Positions 20,770 to 26,468 of a stretch of 47,948 bases of DNA are shown here, in pieces. Source of the stretch: Pseudomonadota bacterium (GTDB taxonomy: Bacteria; Pseudomonadota; Alphaproteobacteria; Rickettsiales; SXRF01); assembly GCA_028873525.1 (NCBI GenBank), contig JAGWIM010000005.1:1-47948 (forward strand), in the 5' to 3' direction. The notes under the pieces were generated by a model, which did no database searches, was not told the origin of the DNA, and was given only the letters and a program-made list of their open reading frames with translations. Each line of letters opens with the position of its first letter. Position 1 is the first letter of the stretch. Position numbers and translations under genes: made by a program.

Positions 20770-21369
20770 TCAGAACCATTCCTTTTTCGGCGCGTTCGGG
20801 TCGATGACGGGTTTTCTGTCCTGCTGATGCACTGCTCTTAAAATGCGTTCCAGATCGTGCTGGCCGTGCGCGTACTCGGCTTTAACATTGGCGGCATTGG
20901 CCGCCTCGCCCTTTTCCTTCCAGGTTGCTGCCACGATCTTGCCGCCCGGCGTCAGGAAGATCGGTGTCGGCAACTCCGTCAGGTCGCGCGGATAGAGCAC
21001 GGCGGAAATCATCGTAAACTGCTGACGATGCCGCAGTATGACCGCCGTGTAGGGAGACTGCCCCTTGGCGCCGGTGATGTATTGCTCCACATAAAATTCG
21101 GCCGGGTTGTCTGAGGACAATGCAAACACCACGCAGTCATCGCTGCGGGAATCCTTGAACAGCTCGGTTTCATCAGCGTCGATAATGATGTAGCTGTCCG
21201 GCGGCAATACGATGTTATAGGCATGTTCCCGCAGCGACAGTTTGCCGCGCATGGGCTTGCCATCCCGACTTTTAAGCAGCCAGTGCCCCGGCTCGCGGGG
21301 GTCGGGTTGCGCGTCGATGACGGTGACGGTTTCGACGCCGCCCGCATACGTGGTTATCGTATCGCTCAT
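20770..21369 (-). CDS. Conserved-looking protein of unknown function
   Basis: 199 residues, no family recognised. No signal peptide or membrane segment. The first two thirds look beta-rich (VTVIDAQPDPREPGHWLLKS, YNIVLPPDSYIIIDADETEL), ending in a charged helical region (AEYAHGQHDLERILRAVHQQ). Reading frame, length and codon use resemble neighbouring genes, so I take it as real. It follows the coxF-like gene on the same strand, where many alphaproteobacteria carry ctaG (Cox11), but it shows none of the Cox11 cysteine motifs. Confidence 0.7.
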   Translation of the reverse strand: MSDTITTYAGGVETVTVIDAQPDPREPGHWLLKSRDGKPMRGKLSLREHAYNIVLPPDSYIIIDADETELFKDSRSDDCVVFALSSDNPAEFYVEQYITGAKGQSPYTAVILRHRQQFTMISAVLYPRDLTELPTPIFLTPGGKIVAATWKEKGEAANAANVKAEYAHGQHDLERILRAVHQQDRKPVIDPNAPKKEWF

Positions 21370-21460
21370 GGATATGCCAGCCCCACCCGGGTCGCCCTAC
21401 GCGAACCGCCCTCGCCCACAACCGGGGAAGAAAAATACATCGTTATTTTATTTACCCGTT

Positions 21461-21577
21461 TCAAAACCCCATGCGCATCAGCGCCACCGCATAGACCAGA
21501 AGAATCAGCGCCACCAGCGCGAGCGACAGGGCGACGTTCTTGCGCTTCTGCGCTTGATGGAGGCCGCCGGGAGGCAA
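21461..21577 (-). CDS. CoxF-like small membrane protein
   Basis: 38 residues from a TTG at 21577. After a short polar start (PPGGLHQAQKRKN) there is a single membrane helix, VALSLALVALILLVYAVAL, ending MRMGF. This layout, a basic KRKN followed by one helix, and its position just after ctaB match the small CoxF-type proteins found between ctaB and ctaG in alphaproteobacterial cox operons. AGGA lies 3-4 nt before the TTG. Its start overlaps no other gene but lies only 4 nt past the preceding stop. Start codon choice is uncertain. Confidence 0.6.
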   Translation of the reverse strand: MPPGGLHQAQKRKNVALSLALVALILLVYAVALMRMGF

Positions 21578-21581
21578 TGTC

Positions 21582-21740
21582 CTACTGCTGAGGTTTGTTG
21601 CGGCGGGTAAAATCCAGCAGCAACAGCAACAGCAACGTGAACAGGCTGCCCAGCACGAAGCTGGCGCCCATCAGGTAAACGGTGCTTTGCGTGACTTGCA
21701 GCAAAGTATGGGCATTTTCAGGAGTAAGGTGTTTTTCCAT
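21582..21740 (-). CDS. Small single-helix membrane protein in the cox cluster
   Basis: 52 residues, starting at ATG 21740 and ending TAG at 21582-21584. It has a soluble N-terminus (EKHLTPENAHTLLQVTQST) and one hydrophobic helix (FVLGSLFTLLLLLLLDF) followed by a basic TRRNKPQQ, predicting a cytoplasmic C-terminus. It lies 30 nt after ctaB and 4 nt before the coxF-like gene, on the same strand, which supports a role near cytochrome oxidase assembly. No family recognised. Confidence 0.6.
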   Translation of the reverse strand: MEKHLTPENAHTLLQVTQSTVYLMGASFVLGSLFTLLLLLLLDFTRRNKPQQ

Positions 21741-21770
21741 AAGCAATCCTTTATGTATGATACGTGTACG

Positions 21771-22691
21771 CTACTGCATGGCGTGCGTCCACCACCCATC
21801 CAGCACCATGGCGACGAATAGCATAAACAGGTAATAAATGGAAAAGGCAAATGCTTTGCGCGGCCAGGTATCGGTTGCGTCGTGCAAAACTTTTCGCATA
21901 TGATGCAGGAATGTCACATCCAGCAGTGCTGCGACCACCGCATAAGGCGCCCCGGCCAGGTGCAAAAGCGGCGGAAGTAACGTTACCGCCGTCAGCAGCC
22001 ATGTATAAAACATCATCTGCCGCTTGGTGCTATCGCTGCCTGCCACCACCGGCATCATCGGCACGCCGGCGCGCGTGTAATCTTCGTTTTTATAGAGCGC
22101 CAGCGCCCAGAAATGCGGCGGCGTCCACAAAAAAATGATGACGAACAACAGCAATGGCATCAGCGATACGCCGCCGGTGACCGCCGCCCAGCCAATCATC
22201 GGCGGAAATGCGCCCGCCGCGCCGCCGATGACGATATTCTGCGGCGTACGGCGCTTGAGCCACATCGTATAGACGACGACATAAAAAAAAATGGCGAAGG
22301 CGAGAATCAAGGCCGCCAGCCAGTTAGTGCCCAACCCCATCAGCATCACCGAGAAGGCGGCCAGGAACAGGCCGAACGCCAGCGCATCGTCGGGCGCGAT
22401 GCGGCCTGCGGGAATCGGGCGTTTTTTCGTGCGCGTCATGATGGCGTCGATGTCGCGGTCGTACCACATGTTCATTGCCGCACCCGCGCCGGAACCCAAA
22501 GCGATACACAAAAGCGTAATGAATTGCTGCAACGGATTGAGATGCCCCGGCGCCAGCAGCATTCCAGATAAGCCCGTAAACACCACCAGCGACATCACGC
22601 CGGGTTTCATAAGAGAGATGAAGTCGCGAACCGAGGACTCGAGAACTCGATGGTTCGATGATTGGATTAAAGCAGGTGCGGTCATACTCAT
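21771..22691 (-). CDS. ctaB: Protohaem IX farnesyltransferase (haem O synthase)
   Basis: 306 residues. A polytopic inner-membrane prenyltransferase that attaches a farnesyl group to haem b, giving haem O for cytochrome oxidase. The first prenyl-diphosphate motif is N74MWYDRDID82, followed by RTKKRPIPAGR; the second conserved loop reads DYTRAGVPMMPVVAGSDSTKRQ (in two parts). About eight to nine membrane helices are evident. The N-terminal residues 9-22 are coded by a degenerate 8-nt repeat array and are not typical of the family. The ATG lies 3 nt after the stop of the HTH gene, so translation may be coupled to it although the two are functionally unrelated. Confidence 0.95.
   Translation of the reverse strand: MSMTAPALIQSSNHRVLESSVRDFISLMKPGVMSLVVFTGLSGMLLAPGHLNPLQQFITLLCIALGSGAGAAMNMWYDRDIDAIMTRTKKRPIPAGRIAPDDALAFGLFLAAFSVMLMGLGTNWLAALILAFAIFFYVVVYTMWLKRRTPQNIVIGGAAGAFPPMIGWAAVTGGVSLMPLLLFVIIFLWTPPHFWALALYKNEDYTRAGVPMMPVVAGSDSTKRQMMFYTWLLTAVTLLPPLLHLAGAPYAVVAALLDVTFLHHMRKVLHDATDTWPRKAFAFSIYYLFMLFVAMVLDGWWTHAMQ
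22628..22668. repeat. Degenerate octamer array in the start of ctaB
   Basis: On the minus strand: ATCCAATC, ATCGAACC, ATCGAGTT, CTCGAGTC, CTCGGTTC. Five variants of an 8-nt unit lie in frame in codons 9-22. Confidence 0.65.
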
Positions 22692-22694
22692 TCA

Positions 22695-23435
22695 TCAACC
22701 ACCAAATTCAAATCCGGTTACATTCGATTCATCGGCTTTATCAACTTTATCGGAACTTACGTCGCGCGATTTTTTTACATTAAGACTCCCTATGCGAGCA
22801 GAGGCTCTTGCATCTTGCAATATTGTAAAATCTTCCTCTGCCATCCTATCAGCCAGATTTTGATGTCCTAAATGATTATCATCATATTTTCCTAATGATC
22901 TATATTCATCTGCCAAAAGTTTCTTTGCAAGATTGATATAACCATCATTTTGCAAAGACATCACTGTATTTAAGAATTCTCTTGCTTGTTGCAGTTTTCC
23001 ACTGGGATCTTTTTTTTGTATTTCTGCACGCTTATCAAATTTTACCTGTGCAATTCCCAGAGCTTTAGCGTTTAATTCTAAATCTTCATCACTTAATTCA
23101 GTACCTGTTGAAATCTGTCCAAATTTTTTGCTTAATATTTCTGCTATATTAACTGCTGTTAAAGGAGTGGGGGGCATCTGTTGTATTTCTTCGTGCGGCT
23201 GCATAACTGCCATTTGCTTAATTGCCGCTGCATTAACCGGAATGCCAATTTTATTTAAACCATTGACAAGACTTAATGTTGTTGAATTATTAGGAGACGC
23301 ACCCTGACGCAATATACGGCTAAGGGTAGCCCTACCAATTTCAGAGCTTTCCGCAAAATCTTCCTGACTTAACCCTTTTTCAGCAAGGCCCTGGGCTAAA
23401 AAAGCCCCTAGTTTATTTTTATAAGACTTAGCCAT
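22695..23435 (-). CDS. HTH (XRE-like) DNA-binding protein linked to brnTA
   Basis: 246 residues. An N-terminal helix-turn-helix is visible at about residues 10-60 (LAQGLAEKGLSQEDFAESSE followed by IGRATLSRILRQG). The rest is a charged, largely helical region of unknown fold (DEDLELNAKALGIAQVKFDK, FLNTVMSLQNDGYINLAKKL). It is notably AT-rich compared with cox genes on either side. AAGGAA precedes its ATG and the gene starts 10 nt after the brnA stop, so brnT-brnA-HTH look like one transcription unit. It may regulate the toxin-antitoxin pair or belong to the same mobile cassette; both are inference. Confidence 0.75.
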   Translation of the reverse strand: MAKSYKNKLGAFLAQGLAEKGLSQEDFAESSEIGRATLSRILRQGASPNNSTTLSLVNGLNKIGIPVNAAAIKQMAVMQPHEEIQQMPPTPLTAVNIAEILSKKFGQISTGTELSDEDLELNAKALGIAQVKFDKRAEIQKKDPSGKLQQAREFLNTVMSLQNDGYINLAKKLLADEYRSLGKYDDNHLGHQNLADRMAEEDFTILQDARASARIGSLNVKKSRDVSSDKVDKADESNVTGFEFGG

Positions 23436-23445
23436 TTATATTTCC

Positions 23446-23721
23446 TTACTCGCTTAACCCCATCGCGGCGCGTAGCAGGGCATTTATGCGGGACTGCCAG
23501 CCGCTGCCGCTGGCGCGCAGCAGGGAAAGAATATCGCGGTCCAGGCTGATGCTGACTACAGCCTTGGTGCGCCCGGCAGGACGCCCGCGCCGCTTGCGCT
23601 CCTTCTCGAACTTAGCGATAAATTCCGGGTCGGTTTCCCGCAACGGACGCATTCCCCGGATGTCTTCGCGCGTCAATTCACGCACGTCCCCGTCCTTAGT
23701 CGTCAAATATCTCTTCTTCAT
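23446..23721 (-). CDS. brnA: BrnA-type antitoxin
   Basis: 91 residues from ATG 23721 (MKKRYLTTKDGDV). Matches BrnA: LTREDIRGMRPLRETDPEF at the front, a basic RKRRGRPAGRTKAVVSISLD linker (one residue over in the genome) leading to a ribbon-helix-helix domain, and the family ending GSGWQSRINALLRAAMG. BrnA neutralises BrnT and usually represses its own operon. Its start overlaps the end of brnT by 26 nt, implying translational coupling. Longer upstream extensions of the frame overlap brnT and are not credible. Confidence 0.9.
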   Translation of the reverse strand: MKKRYLTTKDGDVRELTREDIRGMRPLRETDPEFIAKFEKERKRRGRPAGRTKAVVSISLDRDILSLLRASGSGWQSRINALLRAAMGLSE

Positions 23722-23971
23722 AATACCCCCTCTCTTTTCTGCTCGCCTTGCGTAGGCTGATAATACGCCTCGCACCGTCCCGCTCAGTATAGGCGCAGGA
23801 ATACAATTGGCCTCCGATATACACCAAAGCCACGTATCGAACCTCGCCATAATTCCTGCGGGCATCAGTGCGCTGGACAGCTTTCCCCCAGTCCAACTCC
23901 CAGACCGTCTCGAAATCTACACCATGCTTAGCAAGATTACGGCGGCGTTTGGCTTCGTCCCACTCGAACAT
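23696..23971 (-). CDS. brnT: BrnT-type ribonuclease toxin
   Basis: 91 residues. The BrnT pattern is clear: FEWDEAKRRRNLAKHGVDFE at the start, then RYVALVYIGGQLYSCAYTER and the catalytic-region ending RRIISLRKASRKERGYYEE. BrnT is a RelE-like RNA endoribonuclease of type II toxin-antitoxin systems. It is the first gene of brnT-brnA-HTH, placed between coxA and ctaB. A TATAGCTATA palindrome lies 12-21 nt upstream of the ATG. Confidence 0.92.
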   Translation of the reverse strand: MFEWDEAKRRRNLAKHGVDFETVWELDWGKAVQRTDARRNYGEVRYVALVYIGGQLYSCAYTERDGARRIISLRKASRKERGYYEEEIFDD

Positions 23972-23982
23972 GCACTATTAAA

Positions 23983-23992
23983 TATAGCTATA
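23983..23992. promoter_or_regulatory. Candidate brnTA promoter/operator palindrome
   Basis: TATAGCTATA is a perfect 10-bp palindrome in an AT-rich tract 12-21 nt upstream of the brnT start. It could be both the -10 region and the site for autorepression by BrnA. The coxA stop lies 30 nt further on, so the module has its own promoter region of only about 50 bp. Confidence 0.45.
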
Positions 23993-24021
23993 AAAAATCA
24001 TGCTGTCAACCGGCGACAAGC

Positions 24022-26468
<2,447 letters not shown>

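Follow-up and report, generated by a model that had tools for sequence, protein, structure and literature searches.

Organisation of the coxA–ctaB locus

The stretch of DNA analysed here, which we call the window, is 47,948 nt long and represents contig C125 of genome G000, a genome of 2.0 Mb in 156 contigs. According to the open reading frames and family matches, its minus strand carries, in this order, coxB, coxA, brnT, brnA, an HTH gene and ctaB (Table 1). The six genes are closely packed, as coxA is separated from brnT by 50 nt, brnT and brnA overlap by 26 nt, and gaps of 10 nt and 3 nt follow between brnA and the HTH gene and between the HTH gene and ctaB, respectively. Both flanking proteins, CoxA and CtaB, scored above the curated cut-offs of their families. 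The first-pass annotation had placed a toxin-antitoxin (TA) pair and an AT-rich HTH gene between coxA and ctaB on the same strand, and its coordinates and its 50-nt and 3-nt gaps were confirmed. Judged by these matches, the locus is more than a chance pattern of reading frames, because two curated TA families stand in the right order with the right overlap and because the same junction in G001, a genome of the same genus, is empty and 46 nt long.

Table 1. Genes and candidate regulatory sites in and around the coxA–ctaB junction of the window
Feature	Position	Strand	Remarks
coxB	25611..26468	-	precedes coxA in the interrupted operon; PF00116, PF02790
coxA (ctaD), cytochrome c oxidase subunit I	24022..25614	-	upstream flank; PF00115, TIGR02891 above cut-off
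brnT -35, TTGACA	24009-24004	-	just outside the 26-nt block
26-nt candidate promoter/operator block ATGATTTTTTATAGCTATATTTAATA	23976..24001	-	4 exact copies in 16 genomes, each before brnT
Palindrome TATAGCTATA	23992-23983	-	spans the brnT -10
brnT -10, TATATT	23986-23981	-	ends 9 nt before the start codon
brnT, RelE-superfamily ribonuclease toxin, 91 aa	23696..23971	-	PF04365, E 2.7e-22; PDB 3u97, 6.5e-5
brnA, ribbon-helix-helix type antitoxin	23446..23721	-	PF14384, E 2.6e-18
Orphan XRE-type HTH gene, 246 aa	22695..23435	-	PF01381, E 3.5e-6, residues 17-60 only; GC3 0.243
ctaB, haem O synthase, intact	21771..22691	-	downstream flank; PF01040, TIGR01473

The brnTA module and its candidate promoter block

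The BrnT protein covered the whole PF04365 profile (1-77 of 77; 79.3 bits against a cut-off of 34.5) and matched the solved ribonuclease toxin BrnT (3u97) and a further chain, 7vd7, while the product of the gene directly downstream covered the whole PF14384 profile of BrnA (1-68 of 68; 66.6 bits, cut-off 26.1). With GC3 values of 0.59 for brnT and 0.74 for brnA, next to 0.797 for coxA and 0.723 for ctaB, the pair is near the composition of the genome. The module resembles BrnT/BrnA of Brucella abortus (PF04365/PF14384) in its end-to-end matches, in having the toxin gene first and the antitoxin gene overlapping it, and in the operator-like palindrome at its promoter; it differs in its placement between coxA and ctaB, in its predicted near-leaderless promoter and in the orphan HTH gene behind it. 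The brnTA of the window is an ordinary module of known type at an unusual address, and its position and recurrence are mildly notable. Two further brnTA modules are held by G000, neither of them at cox, and one is preceded by a gene that we take, by eye from its sequence, to be hemF-like.

The 50-nt gap between coxA and brnT harbors a promoter-like site of the form TTGACA-17-TATATT (11/12 match), and the palindrome TATAGCTATA across its -10 is a candidate operator. When the 26-nt block was searched in 16 genomes with up to three mismatches, it was found in four places, all with 0 mismatches; neither copies with 1-3 mismatches nor any site for the reversed control pattern were detected in these genomes. 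The four copies, in the window and in G006:C14, G007:C35 and G012:C123, stand just before the brnT genes of one clade, in which the BrnT of the window groups with G007_C35, G006_C14 and G012_C123 (support 97/94). Perfect conservation of the block as against BrnT proteins that are only 52-62% identical between G000 and the other three members suggests that selection acts on the block. The copies in G006, G007 and G012 are not at cox; in the first two of these genomes, the gene ahead of the module is one that we presume, from the sequence by eye, to be LptG-like.

The first-pass annotation had raised binding of the HTH protein to the TATAGCTATA region as a point to test. Because the identical block precedes brnT in three genomes that lack any relative of the HTH gene, it is best read as the autoregulatory site of brnTA itself, and we rejected the HTH protein as its binder as a main reading. 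BrnA, with BrnT, would then repress its own promoter at the palindrome, as described for Brucella, where BrnA controls brnTA transcription (PMC11980606), and the promoter would open when the level of antitoxin falls.

The spacing of the promoter points to a very short leader. From 37 brnT matches in the family, 31 loci were examined (six of G012 left out) and 30 were scanned, G012's broken brnT being left out. A promoter of at least 9/12 within 60 nt of the start was present in 18 of the 30 brnT starts compared with 25 of 327 control starts, and a -10 ending 0-9 nt before the start in 14 of 30 compared with 5 of 327, figures that are biased toward short brnT leaders by a start rule that took the brnT start nearest the conserved core and the longest ORF for the controls. 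Across the class, 28 loci gave 22 usable starts, seven of which had such a promoter, five of these within 9 nt. The brnT message would, on this spacing, begin at the AUG or a few nucleotides upstream and be nearly leaderless. This is similar to Mycobacterium tuberculosis, for which PMC3898074 gives, among the 37 gene pairs that had a primary start site, 32 whose TA message begins at the start codon; those starts were mapped, whereas the ones considered here are predicted from promoter spacing only, and are alphaproteobacterial and confined to brnT.

The HTH gene

The overall GC of the HTH gene is 0.377 and its GC3 (Table 1) lies well below the 0.72-0.80 of its neighbours, a foreign composition. 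Its Pfam matches are limited to about the first 60 residues of the protein, its matches in PHROGs fall mostly on the N-terminal HTH, and a single-sequence structure model was all-helical with a mean pLDDT of 47.7. The gene is present in single copy in the G000 assembly; one of 343 genomes of the order contained it, namely the window's own, and no relatives were found in genome contigs or viral contigs by pattern-based scans, which reach close relatives only. No match was obtained in phages, plasmids or solved structures either. brnT, brnA and the HTH gene are the only genes between coxA and ctaB, and integrase, transposase and phage genes were not found within the insert. By composition and distribution, then, the insert is composite, consisting of a brnTA pair near genome composition and a foreign HTH gene without relatives. 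The term cassette, as first applied to the three genes, would imply a single unit, but composition gives brnTA and the HTH gene different histories.

It is also conceivable that the module is a tripartite TA system in which the HTH protein acts as third component, regulating the brnTA promoter or helping to neutralise the toxin. The HTH gene begins 10 nt after brnA and has an AAGGA site ahead of its ATG, both in line with this, and PMC11980606 reports two BrnT-BrnA fusions with HTH antitoxin domains. On the other side, the same operator and the same brnTA clade occur in G006, G007 and G012 without the HTH gene, BrnA itself comes from a DNA-binding antitoxin family, and the HTH gene is foreign in composition and not conserved with the module, so that we regard a third member as unlikely.

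The coxA–ctaB junction in related genomes

In the family of 16 genomes, 13 could be assessed at the coxA–ctaB junction, the others being G002 (contig break about 117 nt before ctaB), G011 (the two genes on separate contigs) and G007 (neither gene found). Nine junctions are empty and 25-75 nt long, so the uninterrupted operon that the first-pass annotation had looked to sister genomes for is indeed the usual state, and four are filled: by brnTA and the HTH gene in G000, by a brnTA in G012, by a 542-codon frame in G005 and by two frames in G010. The frames of G005 and G010 gave no Pfam match, and two of the four family inserts are not TA genes; by eye we take the G005 frame to be glycosyltransferase-like. 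Because the junction is empty in nine of the 13 assessable family members, G001 among them, the brnTA-HTH set is, by comparison of gene order, an insertion that splits a conserved cox operon between coxA and ctaB. Relative to the conserved order coxB-coxA-ctaB-(small ORF)-ctaG-coxC, the window keeps the order and strand of coxB, coxA, ctaB and the small ORF, but coxA and ctaB are split by the insert and ctaG-coxC is on another contig. Our literature search brought up no paper on a TA module within the operon of a cytochrome oxidase.

Several side observations concern the same genes. The cox gene cluster of G000 is broken up: downstream of ctaB (window 20770-21746) ctaG and coxC are missing and instead lie on G000:C142 (L122), behind another gene; thrC is on C56, and the window carries a SURF1-like match at 1225-1611. 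In the same-genus G002, ctaB, the small ORF, ctaG and coxC are together; no coxA was found in this genome, and on G002:C70 (L022 1-120) the end of an AT-rich open frame immediately precedes ctaB where the contig breaks, which may represent a third type of insertion at this junction within the family. The coxA of G001 (G001:C46, L021 1220-2862) reads in two frames and is frameshifted or misassembled.

For the order, 61 of 221 ctaB-bearing genomes were taken, mostly outside the two largest families, and 50 of them had a coxA–ctaB junction, of which 40 were below 200 nt, one was 200-299 nt and nine were at least 300 nt. Among these 50, brnT was present in G000 and G012 only. A further set of 80 named loci, the first of which (JAGWLJ010000070.1) shares its match position with G002's contig, yielded 71 junctions (61 below 200 nt, two of 200-299 nt and eight of at least 300 nt), none of the 71 with brnT. 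Four genomes of other families (L039, L042, L047, L057) have similar membrane-protein-like frames of about 170-190 aa in the junction, one of which gave a sub-threshold DUF1761 match.

In G012, a 143-bp insert with inverted ends, from a dispersed repeat family, breaks the junction brnT, and a BrnA-like frame without a Pfam match at 0.1 stands behind this gene. The repeat (L015 2917-3059; L031, L305, L306, L017 675-849) has further copies in G012, and a relative adjoins brnA on G000:C54. The free tree put the G012 junction BrnT outside the clade of G000's BrnT, in a placement without resolution, and the approximately unbiased (AU) test left the two junction BrnTs standing as possible sisters (p 0.099); because of this value, the two insertions may not be independent. 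A brnTA already at the junction in the family ancestor and later lost in most lineages would agree with that test and with the sharing of the junction by two genera. The ancestral placement is nevertheless quite improbable, given the separate positions of the two proteins in the free tree and the many losses needed, as nine junctions are clean, including those of same-genus G001 and of three members of G012's genus.

A dedicated respiratory control, by which the toxin or the HTH protein would tune ctaB, and with it the supply of haem O, to oxygen or stress, might be read from the tight 3-nt junction with ctaB, from the second BrnT in G012 and from the other G000 module behind the presumed hemF-like gene. 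We consider such a role very unlikely: brnT is missing from 48 of the 50 junctions sampled in the order and from the 71 named ones, the G012 toxin gene is broken, and unrelated genes occupy the junction in G005 and G010. The data likewise lend no support to a link specific to cox: the other three copies of the block and G000's other two brnTA modules are all away from cox, and two of the four filled family junctions carry non-TA genes. Misassembly or contamination as the source of the insert, or of its HTH gene, which a genome in 156 contigs and a foreign gene found nowhere else might bring to mind, is scarcely credible in view of the boundaries in register (50, -26, 10 and 3 nt), the fitting composition of brnTA and the single HTH copy in the assembly.

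Other junctions and genomic background

The position of brnTA in operons was compared with that of other genes. A co-directional gene lay within 100 nt both before and behind 13 of 28 brnTA loci, 116 of 306 ordinary genes (from 19 stretches, with a longest-ORF gene call) and nine of 28 ParE-type loci, contig-edge loci having been dropped (three of 31 brnTA and two of 30 ParE-type). An enrichment of brnTA inside operons was not supported by these counts. In these compact genomes the frequency of TA modules in operons is about that of any other gene, and settling there is background and not a special habit, since the fraction for brnTA is close to that of ordinary genes.

Particular junctions are nonetheless reused, with counts that are not a fair sample, as each junction was picked because brnTA was found there. 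The junction between miaB and phoH (L299-L301, L100, L102; labels that we read from the sequence, PhoH being confirmed by Pfam in G013) was assessable in 11 of 16 genomes, with six empty and five filled: by BrnTs in G001 and G011, a RelB-YafQ pair in G013, a PemK/MazF-like toxin in G014 and another frame in G003, presumably isochorismatase-like as judged by eye. The BrnTs of G001 and G011 differ, with an AU p of 0.044 against sisterhood. Between rsmB and rpe, nine of 12 assessable junctions are empty and three filled, one by a TA module; the figures for plsC and rph are 11 of 14 empty and three filled, again with one TA. For SURF1 and thrC, four of 11 (G003 left out) are empty and seven filled, one by a TA module, the other six inserts being larger frames not recognised as TA genes on reading.

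The number of TA matches varies strongly between genomes of one genus, as G012 has 14 brnT and 16 ParE-type matches and G015 has none and two, respectively. In G010 (L319 2197-3036), a gene for a 279-aa XRE-type-regulator-like protein is found just before thrC and co-directional with it, a further instance of a regulator-like gene in front of a household gene.

Expected effect on ctaB

On the minus strand, from the coxA stop codon to ctaB, no terminator-like site was detected, and at the HTH-ctaB junction a GGTGG lies inside the 3' end of the HTH gene. Within the HTH gene two 9/12 sites were seen as possible promoters of ctaB; as the region total of six is no excess over the shuffle mean of 4.8, a specific ctaB promoter there was dropped. 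No known RNA element was found near the junction, and a search of a defence-system library returned nothing relevant.

Because the brnT promoter-like site is strong, no terminator-like site follows it and the last gap before ctaB is 3 nt, read-through or coupling into ctaB appears likely. The short brnA-HTH and HTH-ctaB spacings speak for a single polycistronic message whose translation would be coupled. As the closing gene, ctaB would then belong to two overlapping transcription units, served by read-through from the cox promoter and by the brnTA promoter, and its translation may be coupled to the end of the HTH gene. The regulatory effect proposed at first pass is reasonable as far as ctaB is concerned, on the grounds of the promoter, the lack of a terminator and the 3-nt gap; it is mistaken about the owner of the operator and, as an arrangement specific to cox, has no support.

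Interpretation

Taking these data together, we read the locus, with a probability of roughly 0.65, as an intact type II brnTA module with its own operator-like promoter, joined by a separately acquired XRE-type gene and inserted in the coxA–ctaB junction as a permissive site. It looks like one of several cases in this family in which a TA pair has come to lie between household genes, and not like a device of respiration; the junction would be used because it lies open between co-directional genes, and not for a toxin to serve respiration. The HTH gene, by a guess, may be a passenger regulator, retained as its 3' end now carries the ribosome-binding region of ctaB.

A broader idea, which we put forward tentatively and hold to be rather unlikely, is that TA modules whose near-leaderless promoters are short and self-contained take over both the transcription and the translational coupling of the downstream gene when they enter tight junctions of essential operons, so that their loss becomes costly. 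In this picture of operon locking, unrelated toxins reuse the same junctions, with two BrnTs between coxA and ctaB and two BrnTs, a RelB-YafQ pair and a PemK/MazF-like toxin between miaB and phoH.

Two findings of this study deserve to be retained, the conserved promoter block and the repeated use of the miaB–phoH and coxA–ctaB junctions. That unrelated toxins recur in the same operon junctions gives a route, from sequence alone, to asking where and why TA modules settle. If the promoter and the coupling are real, haem O synthase, which is required by the terminal oxidase, would be driven in part by a TA switch, and the locus would be a simple, testable case of a selfish module becoming hard to lose.
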